Part shown: piece after piece, positions 358 through 12,199 of the stretch
Layout of the letters: every line of letters begins with the position of its first letter
How positions within the stretch are numbered: the first letter of the stretch is position 1
Source of the DNA: Finegoldia magna ATCC 53516
GTDB taxonomy: Bacteria; Bacillota; Clostridia; Tissierellales; Peptoniphilaceae
Reading direction: 5' to 3'
Length of the DNA stretch: 64,000 nucleotides
Assembly (NCBI RefSeq): GCF_000159695.1
Contig: NZ_CM000955.1
Location: forward strand, 1,838,524 to 1,902,523
Program-made: the position numbers and the translations under genes
Notes under the pieces: model-generated
What the model saw: the letters and a program-made list of their open reading frames with translations, nothing else
Database searches by the model: none
What the model was told of the DNA's origin: nothing

Positions 358-2055
358 TTATTTAACATTCATCATTTTTTCTTTTGCTATTTTTTCAATA
401 TCCAAAACTTTTTGTTCTGCTTTTTCTTTTGAATCTGCAACAGAATAAATATATAATTTTATTTTTGGCTCAGTTCCAGAAGGTCTTAATGCATACCATG
501 ATCCATCGTCGTAGTAATATTTTAAAACATTTGATCTTGGAGTTCCAAAATCTTTGTAATTTACATCATAGTCTTTTGTTTCAACTAATTTTGTAGAACC
601 AATTTCATGAATTGGGCTGTGTCTGAATTCTTCCATAATTCTTCCGATCTTTTCTTGACCATCCAATCCTTCTAATACTACTGAAGATAGTGAGTTTTCA
701 TGATAACCAAATTCTTCATACAAATCATCTAAAACGTCAATCAAAGTCTTTCCTTGTTTCTTATAATAAGCTAACATTTCTGAAATCATCATTGAAGAAC
801 TTACCGCATCCTTATCTCTTACAAATGTACCGTAAGAATAACCAATACTTTCTTCATATCCGAATACCCAAGATTTTTCGCCAGTTTTTTCGTATTCATT
901 CGCTTTTCCACAAACATTTTTAAATCCAGTTAATGTTTCTATCATTTCAACGCCATATTTTTTAGCAATTTTAGCCGATAAATCTCCTGTTACGATTGAT
1001 TTTACAACTACAGGATTTTCTGGCAAATCGTGTTTTTCGTATCTTTGACTCAAAATATAGTTTGTCAATAATGCTCCGATTTTATTTCCATCTAAGAAGA
1101 CATATTCACCATCACTTAAAACTTCAACAGCAGTTCTATCAGCGTCTGGGTCAGTTGCCAATAACAAATCAGCTCCAACTTCTTTACCTAAATTGATAGC
1201 ATATTCAAACGCTTCTGGATTTTCAGGATTTGGATAAGGAACAGTCGTAAAATCACTGTCTGGATTTTCTTGTTCTTTTACTACGTAGACATTTTTAAAT
1301 CCTCTGACATCTAAGATATGTCTTACAAATCTATTTCCAGTCCCATTCAATGGAGTGTAAACTATTTTTACATCTTTATCAATATTGTCGTCATTAATTG
1401 TAAGGCTAAGCACATCTTCAAAGTAATCTTTGTCCAAATTTTCACCAAAATATTCTATTTTCTCTTCAGCTATTAATTTTTCAAAATCTCCTATCTTCAC
1501 TTCAGTAAAACTTTCGATTTTGTCCAAATTATTCAAAATTTCATTAGCCTTATCTTCAAGAATTTGACTACCTTCTTCCCAATAAGCCTTGTATCCATTG
1601 TATTCTTTCGGATTGTGAGAAGCTGTAATCATAATCCCTGAAATACAATTAAATTTTCTTATGGAATAAGACAACATAGGTGTTGGTCTAATATCGTCAG
1701 ACAAATAAACTTTTATTCCATTAGAAGCTAATACATTTGCTGATATTTCCGCAAATTCTTTGGAGAATTTTCTGACATCGTAGCTAATGCTTACGCCTCT
1801 TTTCAAAGCTTCTTCGCCGTAGTGTTTTATAGTATCAGCAAGTGCTTGTGTTGTTTTCATTATATTGTACTTGTTCATTCTATTTGTACCTGCACCGATT
1901 TTTCCTCTCAAACCTGCAGTACCAAATTCTAATGATTTATAAAATCTATCTTTTATTTCTTCATTATTATCTTTTATTGACATCAATTCGTCTCTTGTTT
2001 CTTGGTCATAAGACTCATCATTCAACCATTCATTGTATACTTTTAAATAATCCAT
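358..2055 (-). CDS. pgcA: Phosphoglucomutase/phosphomannomutase
   Basis: 565-residue alpha-D-phosphohexomutase. The phosphoserine loop reads TASHNPKEYNG, the metal-binding loop DPDADR, the sugar-specificity loop GYEESIGY, and the C-terminal phosphate-binding loop RPSGTEPKIK, so all four catalytic segments are intact and in order. It should interconvert glucose-6-phosphate and glucose-1-phosphate, linking glycolysis to the ADP-glucose made by GlgC. It is the last gene of the glycogen operon, 9 bases after the C39-like gene, which fits that role better than cell-wall sugar metabolism, although a mannose-phosphate activity cannot be excluded. Confidence 0.93.
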   Translation of the reverse strand: MDYLKVYNEWLNDESYDQETRDELMSIKDNNEEIKDRFYKSLEFGTAGLRGKIGAGTNRMNKYNIMKTTQALADTIKHYGEEALKRGVSISYDVRKFSKEFAEISANVLASNGIKVYLSDDIRPTPMLSYSIRKFNCISGIMITASHNPKEYNGYKAYWEEGSQILEDKANEILNNLDKIESFTEVKIGDFEKLIAEEKIEYFGENLDKDYFEDVLSLTINDDNIDKDVKIVYTPLNGTGNRFVRHILDVRGFKNVYVVKEQENPDSDFTTVPYPNPENPEAFEYAINLGKEVGADLLLATDPDADRTAVEVLSDGEYVFLDGNKIGALLTNYILSQRYEKHDLPENPVVVKSIVTGDLSAKIAKKYGVEMIETLTGFKNVCGKANEYEKTGEKSWVFGYEESIGYSYGTFVRDKDAVSSSMMISEMLAYYKKQGKTLIDVLDDLYEEFGYHENSLSSVVLEGLDGQEKIGRIMEEFRHSPIHEIGSTKLVETKDYDVNYKDFGTPRSNVLKYYYDDGSWYALRPSGTEPKIKLYIYSVADSKEKAEQKVLDIEKIAKEKMMNVK

Positions 2056-2064
2056 AAAATCCTC

Positions 2065-2682
2065 CTATTGATAATAAATTAATCCTTTATACAAAGACTT
2101 TTCCTTAAACCATTTTTCTAAATCATACACTCTCTTTGTTCCCCAGTTTGAGCATTCAATTTTCCAACTATCATCGTAATAAATCGCAGTTATCGTAACC
2201 CAATGAAATTTAACATCAGGATTTTTGTGATTTAAAGTCAACATCAAAACTGGATAACCATTTGCTATTGCACCGATAATATATGTCACTATGTTTCTGA
2301 TTTTCCAAGTAAAATTGTAGTTTTGTGTCACCAAACTCATTCCGTTTTTCTTGGCATACTTTCGAATACCACTGTTCATTGGAAACAAAAATGGCACGCC
2401 GTATATTTTGGGCTTAACAAATGTAGATAGCTTGTCAGCAAATTTTATATAATCAGTCTTGGTTATCGGACTGTCTATAAAATTTTCAGGAACTAACTTA
2501 GCATATTCTTTTTTTGTATTTGCAATGTAGATTAAAAAATTGGTGATAGCAATTACTGAACAACCTTTTTTCGTGAGATAGTTTGAATGCAAAACATCCT
2601 CAAACCATTGTTGATCTCCACCAAAAAAACCTTCAATATTCAAAATTCTATCTACATCTTTGAGTTCATATCTAGTATCCAT
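2065..2682 (-). CDS. C39-like papain-fold protein of unknown role in the glycogen operon
   Basis: 205 residues with no signal peptide. A candidate catalytic triad of the peptidase C39-like fold is visible: Cys41 in KKGCSVIAITN, His160 in KFHWVTITAI and Asn179 in CSNWGTKRVYDL. The hydrophobic stretch near 130-150 fits the fold's core rather than a membrane segment. Its start codon overlaps the pulA stop by one base and pgcA follows 9 bases later, so it is embedded in the glycogen operon. C39-like proteins are cysteine peptidases or amidases. Why one sits among glycogen genes is unknown; a role in processing a glycogen enzyme is speculation. Confidence 0.6.
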   Translation of the reverse strand: MDTRYELKDVDRILNIEGFFGGDQQWFEDVLHSNYLTKKGCSVIAITNFLIYIANTKKEYAKLVPENFIDSPITKTDYIKFADKLSTFVKPKIYGVPFLFPMNSGIRKYAKKNGMSLVTQNYNFTWKIRNIVTYIIGAIANGYPVLMLTLNHKNPDVKFHWVTITAIYYDDSWKIECSNWGTKRVYDLEKWFKEKSLYKGLIYYQ

Positions 2683-4490
2683 TATTTCTCCATACTTATT
2701 GAATATACCCCGCTTTTTCTCTCATCAATCAAAATCACATTGTCGTTTACTTGTGTCTCAATTATTTTGTCATCAAAAATCTTCGTGCAATTTACGAAAT
2801 TTTTAAAATAATCGCTCAAATCAAATTCGAATTTTTCTCCCGAATTTATAAAAACAAGCAAGAATCCCCTATCATTTTTAATACTGAAACAAATACAAAA
2901 AGCATTTACATAGTAAAATTTGAGTTTGTGTCTAACTTCATTCTCATCTTTCAAATTAAATTCTGGATGTGTTTTTCTAAATTCAATCAGCGATTTTACA
3001 TATTGGAATACTTCGTTGTTATAATTCTTCAATTTCCAATCCACTGCATTAACATGAAGCGGCAGATTATAAGTATTTTTAAACATCAATTTACTTCTCA
3101 AGAATTCATTTCCACAATGAAAAAAAGGTATCCCTTGACTTAGCATTATCAAATCAAAACAAAGTTTTGTAGATGTTACGATATCCGTATTTGTTTTAAG
3201 CAATTTATCTTGAAGTATTAAATTATCGTGTGAATTAAAATAGTTAATAGTTTCATTAGGATTTTTGCAAAATCCACGCCTATTTTCATCATAGTCAATC
3301 GATCCACAAATTCCTGTTTCCAAGCTAATTTTATCTACATTTTTTTGAACAAAACCTGTAGAATTATCATCGTTATCACCTTTAATGGCATTCCTGAAAA
3401 AAGGATTGAATAAAGCATAATCTTTTCCTTTTTGACTACCAAAAGTGGTTCTTTTGTTTTTCGATAATGGAGATTCATCTGCCGCCCAAGGTTCTCCGTA
3501 TATAATCACATTTTCATCGTGTTTTCTAAGTTCACTTACGATTTTATCGGTTGTTTCTGAATCTATTAAAGCCATTAAATCAAACCTGAAACCGTCAATG
3601 TGGAATTCTTTTTGAAAATACAATAAGCTATCGATAACAAATTTTCTCACAAATTCATCTTCGGTATTTAATTCATTGCCAACTCCAGATCCATTCGTGA
3701 ATTCTCCATTATTATCACGTCTATAAAATTGTGGATAAATCAAATTAAATGGATGATCTTTGTTTCTAAAAGTGTGATTGTATACAACATCCATAATCAC
3801 CCCAATATTATTTTCATGCAAAGTTTTAATCATTTTCTTGAATTCAATAATTCGGTTTTTAGGATTATCTGGTTCTGTAGCAAAGCTACCTTCAATACAG
3901 TTGTAATTCTCAGGATTGTATCCCCAATTGTAATTATCTTCAGAAAATTTTTCTGAATTTCTCTCATCAACGCCTACAAAATCAAACACAGGCATCAAAT
4001 GAACATGTGTTATCCCCAAATCTTTCAAATGATTTATTCCTGAAACATCATTTTCTTCTACCAATCCTAAAAATTTCCCACGAAAATTTTCATCAACTTT
4101 ACTAGAAATATCTGAAGAATAATCTTTTATGGACAATTCATAGATTATAGCTTCATTTCTGTTTGCTATTTTGTATTGTTCATCAGCAAAACCTTCTGGA
4201 TTTGTGGAATTCAAATCTACGACACATGATTTTAAGCTATTAATTGATGAAGCTTTGCAAAATGGATCTACAATTTCAAACTCATCATCAAGTTGATACT
4301 TGTAATAAATTCCATCCAAATCTCCTTCAACCTTGACTTCAAAATACCCATCACTTTTTTTCATATCAATGGATTTGTATCTGACATCATCGAAATTTTC
4401 GTACAATAATAACTTGACATTAGTTATTTGCGGAGCATAAATCTTAAAAACTGTATATTCTTTGTTGTAATTAAACCCTAACTCATACAT
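2682..4490 (-). CDS. pulA: Type I pullulanase (glycogen debranching, GH13)
   Basis: 602 residues. The N-terminal ~90 residues resemble the CBM48/E-set domain, followed by a GH13 barrel. The type I pullulanase signature YNWGYNPENY is present (usual form YNWGYDP). GH13 regions: DVVYNHT (I), GFRFDLMALID with the nucleophile Asp (II), IIYGEPW with the acid Glu (III) and FNSHDN (IV). No signal peptide, so it should act in the cytoplasm, hydrolysing alpha-1,6 branches of glycogen or limit dextrins. It lies between the phosphorylase-like gene (9 bases) and the C39-like gene (1-base overlap). Confidence 0.92.
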   Translation of the reverse strand: MYELGFNYNKEYTVFKIYAPQITNVKLLLYENFDDVRYKSIDMKKSDGYFEVKVEGDLDGIYYKYQLDDEFEIVDPFCKASSINSLKSCVVDLNSTNPEGFADEQYKIANRNEAIIYELSIKDYSSDISSKVDENFRGKFLGLVEENDVSGINHLKDLGITHVHLMPVFDFVGVDERNSEKFSEDNYNWGYNPENYNCIEGSFATEPDNPKNRIIEFKKMIKTLHENNIGVIMDVVYNHTFRNKDHPFNLIYPQFYRRDNNGEFTNGSGVGNELNTEDEFVRKFVIDSLLYFQKEFHIDGFRFDLMALIDSETTDKIVSELRKHDENVIIYGEPWAADESPLSKNKRTTFGSQKGKDYALFNPFFRNAIKGDNDDNSTGFVQKNVDKISLETGICGSIDYDENRRGFCKNPNETINYFNSHDNLILQDKLLKTNTDIVTSTKLCFDLIMLSQGIPFFHCGNEFLRSKLMFKNTYNLPLHVNAVDWKLKNYNNEVFQYVKSLIEFRKTHPEFNLKDENEVRHKLKFYYVNAFCICFSIKNDRGFLLVFINSGEKFEFDLSDYFKNFVNCTKIFDDKIIETQVNDNVILIDERKSGVYSISMEK

Positions 4491-4499
4491 TTATAACTC

Positions 4500-6593
4500 C
4501 TAAACATCTTTCAGATAATTAATCCCAAATTTTTTGGATAGTTCTATATTTTTAATCATTAAATTATTCCACGAATTTTCATTCAAATACGATTTTTGAA
4601 TTTTTTCATTAACTTCCACAAAATTATCAAAAGAATTCATAACATTAAAACTATCATTGTATTTAAGAATCAAATTATAAATCTCATAAAATTCATTTAT
4701 GATTTTTTTGTTTTCTAATAATTCAATATTTTTTAGTAAAAAATTCATACATCTGGATTCTGTATTTAATAAACGTTCTTCATCAAACTTGAATACTCCA
4801 ATATCTTTTAATTGTCCCATTTTTTCAAAAACACTAGAATCACTTGTCAAAATAATCGAACCGTTATTCATAAATGCATAAGGATATGTGTTTGAAATAT
4901 CGAAGTTTTTGTAAGGTATATAGTTGAAAACATCACAAGCTTTGGCGAAATCTGGCACTTGATCTAGCATAATATTTTCGACAAACACTAATTTTATTTT
5001 TTCTTGAATTAGCTTATCCGAATTAATTACCTTAGACAAACCAAGACACAAACTTATTGTTTTCTTGCAAAACAAGTAATCAAACGAACTCATTCCTCCG
5101 ATAAAAAATGTCGTAGGAGTAATTATCGTATTTACATTATCTTTTAGTTTTAAGTACAAATACAAAATATAAAAAACATTCAGAATTTGTCTCTTACCTT
5201 CGTGAAAGTCTGATAATTGCATATTGAAAATACTCTTATCGTTGATATTTTTTAAGTTGTACTTATCGACAAGTTTTTTCTTGTATTTTAGTTTGCTATA
5301 ATACAAATCATGATATTCGATTTTATTTCTGAATAAATCGTCGTTAAAACCGTAAGTTTGTATCACAATTTTATCTTCAATATTTTTATCAATAACCACA
5401 TGTTCGCTTTTCAATAAATGTTTCTTCTGATATTCAGACCCAACTATTATAGAATGCGTTACAAAAGCTATAAGATTAAAACAGTCTAGGAAATTGTCTT
5501 TAATAATTTCCGGATATCCATTTTTCAGTGCATTTTCATTTATCAACTTAATAATATTTTTAATGCTATCAAACTGATACAAGTAACTCAGATCCATTAA
5601 TTCAAATGATTCTCTGTGTAAATTGATGTTAAAATACTTGAAAATGTTATTAGATTTTTCTAAAGCTTTTTCGAAATCATATCCTTCATCCATTAGTTTT
5701 TGTAAAAACGTGATTATTAACAAAGCGACATTTGTTTCAACGATATTAATTTGAATATGGTCTTTGATTTTATCTGTATTTTTAAAAAATTTTATTTCGT
5801 CATTAAATATGTCTTCAACTATTGAATCCGCAAGAAATTTTTGTTGCAAGAATTTAATATACTTGCCGAATTCATCGATTTCTGGTGTGTAAACAAATTG
5901 GCGAATTGAGTCCAATTTGTTTTCCTCAGAATAAATATCCTCAATTCTTCCACGAATAAAATTTTCGTAGTTAAGATTTGGATTAGCTTTTGGTGAAAAT
6001 AATCTAATGAAATTCGTATTTCCATTTATATAGGGAATATCGTAAATTTGTGATTTAATTTTATTATTGTCTAATTCTATATCGTATTTGCTAGATCTTT
6101 TAAAAACTACACTTGTTTTTGGTTCATGGAATACAGTCTCAATCTGATTTTCATCGACTATTTGTTGCTTAAACTGTGAATTTTTGTAAAAAATCGAATA
6201 CACTTTACAAAACTGTCCTTGTTTTGAGATTTTCTCAAACAAATCTACTGAGAATCTTCCTATATAACTTTGTCCCAAGTGCAAATCATTGTTCATATTT
6301 ACAACATTGTCATATTTATCCTGTAATATTTTTTGCAATGGAGTTTTTAAATTGAGTTTTTCAATATAATCGTCAAACAAATTTTCTACCATTAATTCAA
6401 ATGACACAATGTATGTTCTGGAAGATTTGTCGGCAAAGGTATTTGTGGATTGTCCAGAAATAATTTCTTTAATGACTTCATTTAATGCTAATCTAATTTC
6501 ATAGACATTCGCATCTTGAAGATCGACCAATGAATTATACGATAATTTGATTTGCAATAATTTCCTTAGTCGATCTTCTGAAATATCAATCAT
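4500..6593 (-). CDS. Degenerate glycogen phosphorylase homologue, probable pseudoenzyme (GT35 fold)
   Basis: 697 residues, somewhat shorter than glycogen phosphorylases (about 750-850). It aligns by eye along its length: YIVSFELMVENL with YISxEFLMGRxL, then a segment ending FKQQIVDENQIE with the FxQKIxDGWQxE region, FHEGKRQILN with IHEYKRQLLN, TFFIGGMSSFDY with VFIGGKAAPGY, and IKLVFVENIML with LKVVFLENY. The PLP-lysine motif GTGNMKFMLNG is here NTYPYAFMNNG, so the Schiff-base Lys is Ala573 (4875-4877). The GNGGLGR loop reads GQSYIGR, DTHP reads VETN, and the Arg of KRIHEYKRQ is Asp. The reading frame is intact, with no sign of decay. It overlaps glgA by 4 bases. A phosphorylase reaction looks impossible; a structural, glycogen-binding or regulatory role is inference. 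Confidence 0.75.
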   Translation of the reverse strand: MIDISEDRLRKLLQIKLSYNSLVDLQDANVYEIRLALNEVIKEIISGQSTNTFADKSSRTYIVSFELMVENLFDDYIEKLNLKTPLQKILQDKYDNVVNMNNDLHLGQSYIGRFSVDLFEKISKQGQFCKVYSIFYKNSQFKQQIVDENQIETVFHEPKTSVVFKRSSKYDIELDNNKIKSQIYDIPYINGNTNFIRLFSPKANPNLNYENFIRGRIEDIYSEENKLDSIRQFVYTPEIDEFGKYIKFLQQKFLADSIVEDIFNDEIKFFKNTDKIKDHIQINIVETNVALLIITFLQKLMDEGYDFEKALEKSNNIFKYFNINLHRESFELMDLSYLYQFDSIKNIIKLINENALKNGYPEIIKDNFLDCFNLIAFVTHSIIVGSEYQKKHLLKSEHVVIDKNIEDKIVIQTYGFNDDLFRNKIEYHDLYYSKLKYKKKLVDKYNLKNINDKSIFNMQLSDFHEGKRQILNVFYILYLYLKLKDNVNTIITPTTFFIGGMSSFDYLFCKKTISLCLGLSKVINSDKLIQEKIKLVFVENIMLDQVPDFAKACDVFNYIPYKNFDISNTYPYAFMNNGSIILTSDSSVFEKMGQLKDIGVFKFDEERLLNTESRCMNFLLKNIELLENKKIINEFYEIYNLILKYNDSFNVMNSFDNFVEVNEKIQKSYLNENSWNNLMIKNIELSKKFGINYLKDV

Positions 6594-8014
6594 TTAATGA
6601 TCTCCTCATAAAGTTCGATATATTCTTTTGCAGATTTTTCCCAATCATTTTTGGAATTCATAGCATTTTCTTGAATTATTTTGAAATCATCATTGTAATA
6701 AAAAGATATTGCACGTCTCAATGTGTACAAGAAATCATGCGCGTTGATATTTGTAAAAGAGAATCCATTTCCTTCTTTGCTAAATTCGTTAAATGATTGA
6801 ACAGTATCCCTCAATCCTCCAGTTTCACGCACTACTGGTATAGTTCCATATCTCATAGCAATTAATTGGGATATACCACAAGGTTCAAATATTGAAGGCA
6901 TCATCAAGAAATCTGCTCCTGCATAAATCTTGTGTGATTCTTCATTGTTATAATAAATATTTGCTTTTAATTTATCTGGGAATTTCCATTCATAGTATTT
7001 GAACATTTCTTCATAAGAATAATCGCCTGTTCCCAAAATTATCACTTGTACATCTTCTGTAGTCAAAAACTCATCCATAATGTATCTAACAAGTTCTAAT
7101 CCTTTATTTTCAACCAATCTAGTTACCATTGCAAATATAGGCACATCTTTTTCTTCCAAACTGTACATTCTTTGTAATGCTTTTTTGTTGACAGATTTGT
7201 CCTTAATATTTTTCAATGAGTAATTTTTGAATAAATATTTGTCTGTTTCTGGATTCCAAATAGTTGTATCAATTCCATTTGTGATTCCAGATATTTTGTA
7301 ATGATACTGCCTAATAACTCCATCCAATCCTTCTCCGAAGAATGAGTATTTAATTTCATCAGCATAAGTTTTAGAAACAGTTGTTACTTTATCGCTGAAA
7401 ACTATAGCACCTTTCATGAAGTTGATTGCATCGTAGAATTTCAATGCATCTTCAGAAAAATACATCGGTGATAAATCAGTTTGTCGAAGTGAATTTGAAC
7501 TGAACACACCTTGATACTTTAGGTTGTGAATTGTAAAAACAGTTTTGATAGATTCGTAGAATGGATCACCTTTTGCAAAATCTCTTGCATAAACATTGAC
7601 CATGGCTGTGTGCCAATCATTGGAATGAATAATGTCGCAATCAAAATCGATATATCTTAATAATTGGACACATGCTTTAGAGAAAAATACAAATCTTTCG
7701 CAATCGTCATTTTCTCCATACACATTATCTCTGTTGAAATAATCTTCATTATCTAAAAAATAAAACTCGACACCTCTGTGAATGTATTTGAAAACACCGA
7801 CATAATGATGTTTAAAATCCAAATCTACATAAAAGCTTCCTTCAAATTCAAATTTATTTCTGTATTCCTCATTTATCAATTTGTACAAAGGGATGACCAC
7901 TTTCACATCATGACCTTGTTTTTTCATTTCAAGTGGAAGTGTCCCTGCTACATCTGCAAGTCCACCAGTTTTTATAAACGGATCAGCCTCTGCTGCACAA
8001 TATAATATCTTCAT
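6590..8014 (-). CDS. glgA: Glycogen synthase (ADP-glucose, GT5)
   Basis: 474 residues, usual length for bacterial GlgA. The N-terminal ADP-glucose-binding motif is KTGGLADVAGTLP (residues 15-27), with the family's HSNDWHTA and TIHNLKYQG segments. The C-terminal Rossmann half has EPCGISQLIAMRYGTIPVVRETGGL, a GT5 donor-site region. It adds ADP-glucose units to alpha-1,4-glucan chains in the cytoplasm. It starts 10 bases after glgD and overlaps the phosphorylase-like gene by 4 bases, implying translational coupling. Confidence 0.95.
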   Translation of the reverse strand: MKILYCAAEADPFIKTGGLADVAGTLPLEMKKQGHDVKVVIPLYKLINEEYRNKFEFEGSFYVDLDFKHHYVGVFKYIHRGVEFYFLDNEDYFNRDNVYGENDDCERFVFFSKACVQLLRYIDFDCDIIHSNDWHTAMVNVYARDFAKGDPFYESIKTVFTIHNLKYQGVFSSNSLRQTDLSPMYFSEDALKFYDAINFMKGAIVFSDKVTTVSKTYADEIKYSFFGEGLDGVIRQYHYKISGITNGIDTTIWNPETDKYLFKNYSLKNIKDKSVNKKALQRMYSLEEKDVPIFAMVTRLVENKGLELVRYIMDEFLTTEDVQVIILGTGDYSYEEMFKYYEWKFPDKLKANIYYNNEESHKIYAGADFLMMPSIFEPCGISQLIAMRYGTIPVVRETGGLRDTVQSFNEFSKEGNGFSFTNINAHDFLYTLRRAISFYYNDDFKIIQENAMNSKNDWEKSAKEYIELYEEIIK

Positions 8015-8024
8015 TTACATTCCC

Positions 8025-9137
8025 CTATTTATCTTCTAATATTGCATTCTTTTTTAATTCATATGGATAATTTGGATTACCAACTGCAGTTACATTTTCC
8101 TTTATCAAGACTCCTTTATCAGTAATCGTGTTTACAACTACTGCATTCTTTTCTATTACCGTTCTTTCGAAAATAACAGAGTTTTTGATAACAGAGCCCT
8201 CTTGAATTTCTACGCCTCTAAAAATAATTGAATTTTCAACTTTACCATCTATTTTGACTCCGTTTGCTATCAATGAATTCTTAACGCAAGCAGAGTCACC
8301 GTATAATGCTGACGGTTCGTCTTTTGATTTTGTTAATAATAATCCATTTTTGAAAAATACATTGTTGTAAATATCAGTATTTAATAATTTCAAATTTGCA
8401 TCGTAAAATTGTGTCAAATTTCTGATTACTTCAACATATCCATCAATCATGTACACACCGATTTTTAATTTATCCAAATTAGAAATAATAACATCGATTA
8501 ATTCATTAGAATTAGAATTTTTAGCTGCATCGTGAATCAAATTCAAGAAAACTTCTTTTTTCATGTAACCAATGTTTGTCATTAAATTAAATTCATCATC
8601 AATTCCTTGATTCGTTCCTATACTGATTAGATTGCCTTCATCATCCAAGTTTAATCTGGTTTCTCCGATGAATAATCCCGTTGCATTATCCATTTTTTTG
8701 CAAAACAATAATATGTCCAAATCTTCTTCGATAAATCTATCGTGAGAAACGGAAAAATCTTCTCTGAAAATAACCATTGGATCGTAGAAATACAACTCAT
8801 CTTCTTTTGATCTCAAATAAAAATCCCTAGTTTCGTTGTAAGCGACGATTTCCTTACCAGCATTTTCAAAAGTTGGAGGAAATATAACAAGTCCATTTCT
8901 TCTTCTATTTAATTCATAACTTTCGCCATTTCCCAAGTGATCTAGAGTAGACCTCATAATTTTTCCGCCATACAAAACAACATTTGAAAACTCATTATTC
9001 GCAAAGTTACTCAAAGCAATATCTATGATTCTGTATCTTGCCCCATAAGGAAGCATATATTCTGGTCTGGAATCAGTTAGATATCCAAAATCTTGTCTAC
9101 TTTTTCCACCGTATATAATTCCAATACAATTTTGCAT
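8025..9137 (-). CDS. glgD: Glucose-1-phosphate adenylyltransferase regulatory subunit GlgD
   Basis: 370 residues, paralogous to GlgC next to it. The N-terminal nucleotide loop, which reads [11 protein letters not shown] in GlgC, is here YGGKSRQDFGYLTDSRPEY, so the catalytic pyrophosphorylase signature is lost, as is typical of GlgD. The PYGARYRIIDIALSN segment and the C-terminal left-handed beta-helix repeats (region of SVIKNSVIFERTVI) are kept. In Firmicutes GlgD pairs with GlgC and changes its kinetics. Nine bases separate it from glgC. Confidence 0.92.
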   Translation of the reverse strand: MQNCIGIIYGGKSRQDFGYLTDSRPEYMLPYGARYRIIDIALSNFANNEFSNVVLYGGKIMRSTLDHLGNGESYELNRRRNGLVIFPPTFENAGKEIVAYNETRDFYLRSKEDELYFYDPMVIFREDFSVSHDRFIEEDLDILLFCKKMDNATGLFIGETRLNLDDEGNLISIGTNQGIDDEFNLMTNIGYMKKEVFLNLIHDAAKNSNSNELIDVIISNLDKLKIGVYMIDGYVEVIRNLTQFYDANLKLLNTDIYNNVFFKNGLLLTKSKDEPSALYGDSACVKNSLIANGVKIDGKVENSIIFRGVEIQEGSVIKNSVIFERTVIEKNAVVVNTITDKGVLIKENVTAVGNPNYPYELKKNAILEDK

Positions 9138-9146
9138 AATTTCCTC

Positions 9147-10286
9147 CTAACACTCTTCAATTCCATCTTCACTAACCAAGAAGATTTTGTCGGAGTCCTT
9201 TTCACCAATCACTTGGTTTTCTTCAATGGTCATGGATTCTGCAACTACACAGTTGTAAAGTTTTGCACCTTTCTTTATAACAGTATCGCTTAAAATAACA
9301 GAATCATGAACTTCTGCATTCTTTTCCACAGTTATTGATGAAAACAAAACTGAATTATTCACATTTCCGTAAATCAAACAATTTTCATTGATTAAAGATT
9401 TTTTCACTTCTGCAACTTCATCAACATAATGTGGTGGGAGATTTCTGTTTTTCGTGTAAATTCTCCAACTAGTATCGTACAAGTCCAGCCTATTGTCAGG
9501 ATTTAATAAATCCAAATTAGCTTGCCAGTAACTTCTTACAGTTCCCACATCTTTCCAGTAGCCATCAAATTTCCATGCAAAAACATTTAAACCGTCATTT
9601 ATAATCTTAGGAATTATATTCATTCCGAAATCGTGTTTGGAATTCTTATCTTCATTGTCTTCAATCAAATATTTTTTCAAAGTGTGCCAGTTGAAAATAT
9701 ATATTCCCATAGAAGCCAAATTGCTTTTAGGGTTTTTTGGTTTTTCTTCAAATTCAACGATTTTTCCATCTTCATCGGTATTCATAATACCGAATCTACT
9801 AGCTTCGCTCCAATCTACCTCCATTACTGCAATTGTAAGCTCACTATTCTTTTCTTTGTGATATTTTAAAATCTTGTTGTAATCCATTTTATAAATATGG
9901 TCACCAGATAAAATCACAACATATTCCGCGTCCAATTCATCTAAGTAATTCATATTTTCGTAAATAGAATTAGCTGTACCTTCATACCAATTACCACCAC
10001 TTTCTGTAGCAAACGGCGATAAAATTCTCAAACCACCAGAATTTCTGGATAAATCCCAGCTAGATCCATTACCTAAATGTGAATTTAATTTGAATGGTTT
10101 ATATTGTGTTAAAATTCCAACATCTCTTATATCTGAATTTGCTGCATTACTCAAAGCAAAATCAATAATTCGATATTTTCCACCAAATGACACTGCTGGT
10201 TTTGCAACATTTTTTGTCAATGCCTTTAGTCTTGAACCTTGTCCTCCCGCTAAAAGCATTGCGACAACTCTATTTCGTGCCTTCAT
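9147..10286 (-). CDS. glgC: Glucose-1-phosphate adenylyltransferase catalytic subunit GlgC
   Basis: 379 residues. N-terminal nucleotidyltransferase with [29 protein letters not shown], the [10 protein letters not shown] metal/active-site loop and FEEKP. The C-terminal beta-helix includes [10 protein letters not shown] and [11 protein letters not shown] repeats. It makes ADP-glucose from glucose-1-phosphate and ATP, the committed step of glycogen synthesis. It follows glgB by 8 bases and precedes its inactive partner glgD, so the two subunits should be made together. Confidence 0.96.
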
Positions 10287-10294
10287 AAATCCTC

Positions 10295-12199
10295 CTACTT
10301 TTTATTGATATTTCTAAGTTTATTTTGTTTTATAAACATCGCAGAAAATGGTTCTATATCAACTGTTATAGAAAATTTTCTGTCGTTGTGTTCTATGTTT
10401 TTCGAATAATATGGTTTATTCCTTTGTAAATTTCCACCGTATTTCTTCATTGAAGAATTAAGTACAACTGAATACAGTGCGTAATCATCCACACCTACTG
10501 GATATTTCTCTCTTTTTACAGGTGTGAAATTAAAAATACAAATTATTTTCTCATTTTTGGAATTTATTCTTTCAAAAATTATCAAAGATTCATTTGCGTT
10601 GTTCACATCTTCCCATTGAAAACCCGAATAACTTGTATCCATATCATAGAATTCATCATTATCAATATAAAATTTATTTAAATCTTTCATAAAATGTTTT
10701 AATTTTTGATGCTTTTCGTATTCCAAAACTTCCCACGTTACTTCTTTGTATTCATTCCATTCATCAAATTGGCCAATGTCATTACCCATAAACAAAAGTT
10801 TTTTTCCAGGATGAGCAAACATAAAAGAATACAAAAGTCTTATTTGATCGAATTTTTCATCGTAAGTTCCAGGCATTTTACCAATCATTGAGTTTTTCAT
10901 GTGAACTACTTCATCGTGACTAAATGGGAGAATGTAATTTTCATTAAAGGCATACATTATCGAAAAAGTTAATAAATTATGATGGTCTTTCCTAAAAATA
11001 GGATCCATCTTCATGTATTTGATTATGTCATTCATCCAACCCATATTCCACTTAAAATCAAAACCAAGTCCGTTTTCTTCTACTGATTTCGTAACATTTG
11101 GCCATGAAGTTGATTCTTCTGCAATTACAAAAGCACTTGGAAATTCTTGTTTAATTGTTTGATTTAATTTTTTAATAAATTCTATAGCTTCCTTGTTTTC
11201 GTAGCTGCCATCTTCGTTTCTGATATCTTTTCCAGCAAAATTCAAATATATCATATAAGCAACTGCATCAACCCTAAGTCCATCCGAATGGTAGTATTTG
11301 AACCAAAATAATGCAGAAGATATAAGAAAATTCACCACTTCTTTTTTTGAAAAGTCAAAGTTCAGTGTTCCCCATTGATCATTATCAGCTAAGTATTGGT
11401 CTGATTTTTCAAATAAATTACTTCCGTCAAATTTTCTAAGTCCAAAATCATCTCTACAAAAATGAGCCGGAACCCAATCCATGATAACTCCAATATCATT
11501 CTGGTGTAATTTGTCAATCAAATACATCAAATCTTTTGGACAACCAAATCTAGAAGTAGCTGCAAAAAATCCCGTAAGTTGATATCCCCATGATCCATCG
11601 AAAGGATGCTCCATTAAAGGCATAAATTCAACATGTGTGTAATTCATTTCTTTAAGATAATCCACCAGCTCATCTGCTAACTGAATGTAAGACAAATAAT
11701 TCTCACCGTATTTTCTCCATGAAGAAAGATTTATCTCATAAATACTCATAGGACTGTGGAATCTATCTGTTTTTTCTCTTTTTTTGAGCCATTTTTTGTC
11801 ATTCCATGTATAACCTTCAATGTCATAAACTTTACTTGCTGTTTTTGGTCTCAATTCGCTATGAAATGCAAATGGATCCGCCTTGTATAAAACTTCTGAA
11901 TCTTGTGTAACTATTCTGTACTTATATGAATCAAAGATTTTAACATCTCTGAGACAAATCTCCCAAATTTCTCCATCGTGTAATTTTTGAAGTGGAAGTG
12001 AATAATCGTCCCAATCATTGAAATCTCCAACCAAATTTACATGTTTGGCATTAGGTGCCCACACCAAAAATCTGGTGTAGGTTCCTAAATCATCTGAGTA
12101 AATATGAGATCCCAAAAATTTATACAAATTATTATTGTTTCCTTCATGAAACAAGTAAACATCTGTTTCATTATTTCCCTGATAAAAATACTTTTCCAT
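10295..12199 (-). CDS. glgB: 1,4-alpha-glucan branching enzyme (GH13)
   Basis: 634 residues. N-terminal CBM48 ([18 protein letters not shown]), then GH13 regions [19 protein letters not shown] with the nucleophile, FVIAEEST with the acid Glu, and [10 protein letters not shown]. It creates alpha-1,6 branches in glycogen. First gene of the glycogen operon; the Shine-Dalgarno GGGAGAAA precedes the ATG. Only 38 bases separate it from the upstream beta-CASP gene, so the operon may be read through from there or use a weak promoter in the gap (TATATA near 12230). Confidence 0.95.

Follow-up and report, generated by a model that had tools for sequence, protein, structure and literature searches.

A degenerate glycogen phosphorylase paralogue held in the glycogen operon of Finegoldia and its relatives is probably a pseudoenzyme

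The glycogen operon of Finegoldia magna ATCC 53516, located in the 64,000-nucleotide stretch of DNA analysed here (the window), includes a phosphorylase-like gene whose product lacks the lysine that would hold the pyridoxal phosphate (PLP) cofactor, raising the question of what such a protein is kept for. All eight genes considered lie on the minus strand: glgB, encoding a branching enzyme (10295..12199; NF008967, 829.1 bits, cut-off 577); glgC, glucose-1-phosphate adenylyltransferase (9147..10286; NF003670, 592.5 bits, cut-off 470); glgD, a GlgC-like regulatory subunit (8025..9137; TIGR02092, 269.9 bits, cut-off 236.6); glgA, ADP-glucose glycogen synthase (6590..8014; NF001898, 646.2 bits, cut-off 603); glgP2, the gene in question (4500..6593); pulA, type I pullulanase (2682..4490; TIGR02104, 552.5 bits, cut-off 504.5); orf205 (2065-2682), which has no Pfam or NCBIfam match above cut-off; and a pgm-like phosphohexomutase gene (358..2055; PF02878, PF02879, PF02880 and PF00408). 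As the original prediction had it, glgP2 is uninterrupted and overlaps glgA by 4 bases; it encodes an intact candidate pseudophosphorylase of 697 aa.

The window protein matches the phosphorylase model PF00343 at 185 bits (gathering score, 27), and eight relatives score 301-720 bits. Its other matches are of the TIGR02093/GlgP/MalP type, with the TIGR02093 subfamily cut-off not reached (176.9 vs 552.9 bits), while TIGR02094 ('more_P_ylases'), which describes distant GT35-type proteins, is absent from the matches at an E-value of 0.1. Predicted structures show a full-length GT35 fold in models from two GlgP2 clades, 25% identical to each other.

Alignment with 45 canonical GT35 rows (44 distinct, as L094 duplicates L005), together with intermediate sequences from L079-L085, placed the Ala573 codon (4875..4877) at the position of the PLP Schiff-base lysine, which we take to be K680 of rabbit phosphorylase, so that the central claim of a phosphorylase homologue without its PLP lysine stands. 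In the same alignment, DISNTYPYAFMNNG occurs in place of EASGTGNMKFMLNG in the PLP and glucosyl-phosphate loop (4860..4901), and the other motif changes already suspected from the sequence were recovered, namely GQSYIGR in place of GNGGLGR (6255..6275), ETNV in place of DTHP (5727..5738), and SDFHEGKRQ in place of KRxHEYKRQ (canonical KRLHEYKRQ; 5187..5213), the last with loss of the R569 equivalent and retention of that of K574; all these positions are on the minus strand. Compared with the GlgP/MalP alpha-glucan phosphorylases (CAZy GT35, PF00343, TIGR02093), the window protein has lost the PLP lysine and the equivalents of R569, H377, N484 and Y573, as well as the SGTGN phosphate loop apart from S674 and T676. 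Across 17 catalytic and PLP sites, presumed from our own choice of positions and rabbit numbering, it retains three residues (K574, S674 and T676), against 17 of 17 in every one of the 45 canonical rows, a set that leans towards good copies because 30 of its rows are best-scoring PF00343 matches.

The same loss extends to the relatives of the window protein. The 55 GlgP2 rows that were compared (49 intact operon copies; the truncated L063, frameshifted near its N-terminus; and the five database proteins P0037, P0039, P0043, P0045 and P0046, with eight fragments from the broken L064, L072 and L077 and from L086 and L134 set aside) retain a median of 2 and a maximum of 10 of the 17 residues. Retention over all GlgP2 rows was 0.185 in the catalytic columns versus 0.471 in other canonical-invariant columns, a value as low being reached in 6 of 10,000 permutations; for the window protein alone, depletion at catalytic relative to other invariant sites was not significant (898/10,000 permutations). 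The PLP-site lysine is retained in 11 of the 55 rows, and the proteins at L079-L081 keep 8-10 of the 17 residues, both of which speak for a still-working phosphorylase that draws on a lysine elsewhere in the pocket. Such an enzyme is nevertheless very improbable, given that G677 of the phosphate loop is found in none of the 55 rows, that alanine occupies the PLP-lysine site in 42 of 42 Finegoldia-type rows, and that a canonical copy is present elsewhere in the genome. Because the lysine persists in some rows and G677 in none, the GlgP2 sequences seem to form a graded series, with the phosphate loop lost before the lysine; on a quick tree, the residue at the lysine site changes at least six times.

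To establish how widely the gene is kept, PF00343 searches, inspection of loci and profile searches were applied to 130 genomes from the family to which F. magna DSM 20470 belongs (NCBI: Peptoniphilaceae). GlgP2 was found to be a conserved GT35 paralogue, occupying the slot between glgA and pulA in 52 of these genomes (Finegoldia, Anaerococcus and others) and intact in 48; the broken copies are those of G038, G039, G069 and G096, with assembly errors possible in the first two since pulA is also shortened or split there. Database proteins P0001-P0048 are 53-96% identical to the window protein, and those bearing names are from Finegoldia magna, while named Anaerococcus-type relatives include A. 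vaginalis, A. jeddahensis, A. ihuae, A. rubeinfantis and 'Peptoniphilaceae bacterium'. An alignment-based protein search listed Finegoldia-type and canonical proteins only, though its query alignment included other GlgP2 sequences.

The position of the gene is essentially fixed. In 60 of 60 operons, comprising the window, the 52 family genomes and seven genomes outside the family whose slot gene is termed P2b, the GlgP2 or P2b gene follows glgA on the same strand, and the distance between the two is -104 to +14 bases in 57 (the exceptions being L063 and L077, both broken, and L128), some overlaps being over-long as start codons were taken as the first in frame. GlgA is present in all 52 GlgP2 genomes, and GlgP2 without GlgA in 0/52, a count over related genomes that is not independent of ancestry. 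Of 82 family genomes with a GlgA match, 81 were retained after a weak match in G114 was dropped. Among the 29 that have GlgA without GlgP2, pulA directly follows glgA in 18, a 349-aa ORF intervenes in one, pulA is absent from the stretch examined in another, and glgA lies in a different neighbourhood in nine. The operon is kept without GlgP2 in two lineages (L108 and a 10-genome clade), indicating that GlgP2 is dispensable.

In nine family genomes (G046-G054; L095-L100 and L122-L124), glgA is divergent and lies in a quite different neighbourhood, with no GlgC, GlgD or PulA match in the 15-16 kb examined; these genomes gave no PF00343 match genome-wide, and G052-G054 gave weak A1 profile matches (E about 1e-5).

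Whether this pattern reflects maintenance or decay was judged from substitution rates. The median dN/dS of GlgP2 was 0.098 (range, 0.054-0.180) over 46 unsaturated pairs, 8 of 54 having been dropped for saturated dS; the pairs are non-independent, 4 of the 54 are P2b pairs, and the truncated L064 takes part in six and the frameshifted L063 in some. Median values for neighbouring genes were 0.094 for PulA, 0.071 for Pgm, 0.046 for GlgD, 0.042 for GlgA and 0.033 for GlgC, and between the window and F. magna DSM 20470, GlgP2 gave 0.151 and PulA 0.122. GlgP2 is thus under strong purifying selection, and within clades, conservation is higher in its remodelled pocket than elsewhere in the protein. 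In the Finegoldia-type set (42 rows), entropy was 0.153 at the 17 sites versus 0.501 overall (0.0006 of permutations), and in the Anaerococcus-type set (116 rows), it was 0.704 at 46 motif columns versus 1.156 (0/5000 permutations), with the 17 sites alone not significant in the latter (0.07); both sets were selected by length, a filter passed by 41 of 48 Finegoldia-type proteins and by 116 of 120 of the Anaerococcus type, most of which carry no species label. Loss of catalytic residues is accordingly combined with retained purifying selection, the combination by which a pseudoenzyme is recognised.

These data bear directly on the possibility that GlgP2 is a decaying relic of an operon glgP that has stayed in frame by chance. 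The protein does evolve fast (mean ML distance 2.18, versus 0.66 for canonical GlgP, in 29 genomes), four of its 52 copies are broken, and it has been lost in two lineages, all of which a relic would accommodate. Decay is, however, contradicted by the low dN/dS in every unsaturated pair, as well as by the intact state of most copies and the conservation of the pocket, so that simple decay is strongly disfavoured and the relic can be held scarcely credible. The original prediction that the gene is selected for something is borne out by these values, and the orthologues in relatives, whose breakage would have pointed to decay, are mostly conserved.

It had further been proposed that the operon contains no working phosphorylase. 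This applies to the operon, but not to the cell, since 50 of the 52 genomes with GlgP2 encode a canonical-type GlgP away from the operon; in G027 and G059, whose assemblies may be incomplete, none was found. The check for a second GT35 protein was made in two Finegoldia genomes other than that of the window, and both carry a canonical-type GlgP (G001 at L002; G055 by score). Most of the remaining canonical-type copies were recognised from their PF00343 score only, those of G077 and G015 being in pieces. A separate observation concerns G011, in which the canonical-type glgP at L086 is split into two frames and a second canonical copy, on another contig (L087), is intact but unusual (KMMLNG).

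GT35 enzymes are commonly dimers, and the main rival explanation is that GlgP2 pairs with canonical GlgP as the regulatory subunit of a heterodimer, where an inactive protomer could modulate its active counterpart. A canonical-type GlgP accompanies GlgP2 in 50 of 52 genomes, versus 19 of the 29 genomes with GlgA and without GlgP2, and the whole GT35 fold appears to be kept in the GlgP2 models, both consistent with such pairing. Against it, glgP2 and canonical glgP are located apart from each other in the genomes listed, no canonical GlgP was found in two of the assemblies that have GlgP2 (G059 and G027), and the partial rate correlation between the two proteins was 0.09 (29 genomes) or 0.31 (18 genomes), leaving the heterodimer a serious but unlikely alternative. 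The rate covariation analysis compared GlgP2 with GlgA, GlgC, GlgD, PulA, Pgm and canonical GlgP, the 29 genomes being those of the 50 with both genes whose canonical copy was retrieved; the highest partial correlations were with GlgC (0.57, 29 genomes) and PulA (0.38, 18 genomes), and no partner was consistent.

Conservation of the pocket within clades also invites the explanation that GlgP2 is still an enzyme, carrying out PLP-independent chemistry in a converted active site, for example, glucosyl transfer from a nucleotide sugar. Both the Finegoldia-type and Anaerococcus-type sets keep K574 and have Asp at position 672 (canonical E672), in keeping with this idea, as is the kinship of GT35 with GT3 and GT5, which are grouped as related GT-B families in PMC11046441. 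Yet the equivalents of R569, H377, N484 and Y573 are each kept in fewer than 10% of the 55 GlgP2 rows, and the rest of the pocket is mostly filled by different residues in the two sets, making one shared new chemistry unlikely; a converted enzyme is accordingly considered improbable, although less so than a relic or a working phosphorylase.

The explanation favoured here, with a confidence slightly better than even, is that GlgP2 is a pseudoenzyme that serves the glycogen machinery as a non-catalytic subunit, probably binding glucan ends or sugar phosphate and acting as a scaffold or regulator. The pattern observed is the one expected of a non-catalytic subunit or ligand sensor: an overlap with glgA, a retained fold, missing catalytic residues, a pocket fixed anew, and a canonical gene elsewhere. 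In the proposed course of events, the operon's GT35 phosphorylase would have lost the residues that catalysis with PLP and phosphate requires, with degradation open to being taken over by the canonical glgP outside the operon. GlgP2 would then have been kept as a non-catalytic subunit produced in step with GlgA and PulA, its re-shaped pocket most likely binding glucan ends and/or sugar phosphate, and the ligand-bound protein may scaffold or regulate glycogen synthesis or turnover in a GlgD-like manner. The slot and the co-occurrence with GlgA favour the synthesis side (GlgA and PulA) as the site of action, and the scaffold, allosteric-partner and primer-binding roles first suggested for the protein fit this gene order and co-occurrence.

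Pseudoenzymes of storage-polysaccharide metabolism are a kind already known: plant proteins such as ISA2, LSF1 and BAM9 are related to starch enzymes but catalytically dead, and serve as scaffolds or regulators; they belong to other families, none of them GT35. The nearest known example of the principle is GlgD, which is likewise related to a catalytic glg enzyme retained alongside it in the operon and is described in PMC10395257 as the regulatory subunit of ADP-glucose pyrophosphorylase; GlgD differs in having another fold and another parent enzyme, and glgD adjoins the gene of its partner, glgC, while glgP2 and canonical glgP are not neighbours. Searches of openly accessible literature returned no description of an inactive GT35 protein, and a GT35 case with intermediates appears to be new. 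If the favoured explanation is correct, GlgP2 would be, as far as the open literature shows, the first GT35 pseudoenzyme, a conserved lineage with a fixed place in the glycogen operons of anaerobic cocci common in humans, and the catalytically dead helpers of plant starch metabolism would gain a bacterial parallel. With 10 down to 1 of the 17 catalytic residues retained, the graded series lends itself to the study of an enzyme turning into something else. There is also a warning for annotation: databases name these proteins as phosphorylases, and Anaerococcus-type relatives carry the database label glycogen/starch/alpha-glucan phosphorylase, and glgP2 genes should not be annotated as degradative enzymes.

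With regard to history, GlgP2 forms one side of a branch in GT35 trees with SH-aLRT support of 98 (30/55 rows) and 99 (17 rows), these trees being made by a quick method, unrooted, with long branches and without a distant outgroup. On a quick GlgA tree of 91 rows, the occurrence of GlgP2 is best explained by a single origin followed by two losses within the clade. The seven P2b genomes, which belong to the same order but not to the family (G220-G223 and G233-G235; L125-L131), have the same gene order, with a differently degenerated GT35 protein of 740-777 aa, lacking the lysine, in the slot after glgA and pulA following in six (the contig ends at L128). P2b retains SHRRW/SHRKY-type and NRQ motifs and 1-3 of the 17 residues (7 rows), with retention of 0.076 in catalytic versus 0.482 in other invariant columns (0/10,000 permutations as low). 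A full-scoring GT35 protein is encoded elsewhere in each P2b genome, with residues checked in G220 and G233 (L135 and L136).

At two further loci, L137 and L138, a canonical copy itself occupies the slot and is followed by a distant GH13 relative. A single clade of GlgP2, P2b and the L137/L138 copies was rejected (AU p 0.016, with long branches a caveat), leaving descent from a slot copy of that type unsupported.

A more general proposal, put forward tentatively as somewhat doubtful, is that these proteins represent a class of non-catalytic GT35 subunits, in which the PLP pocket would have become a conserved glucan or sugar-phosphate sensor controlling GlgA and PulA (or canonical GlgP) after stepwise loss, phosphate loop and arginine first and lysine later and repeatedly; the window's family and the G220/G233 lineages of the same order may have undergone this independently. 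Among 391 genomes drawn evenly from the class, no further GlgP2-like protein (sought as weak pieces in a 735-810 aa frame) was found in 71 re-searched genomes, hand-picked among the matches listed, from which the weak end had been cut, for having at least two matches and a strong best match, a choice that left out genomes with several but only weak matches (e.g., G274, G381, G443, G455, G482, G524 and G599).

Finally, some other glg operons (e.g., L069, L079-L083 and L108) have homologues of orf205 flanked by pulA and pgm, and elsewhere such homologues adjoin orphan canonical glgP genes (e.g., L016, L022, L024, L032 and L033). One of them matches Peptidase_C70 slightly under the cut-off, and orf205 may possibly encode a papain-like protein tied to phosphorylase loci.
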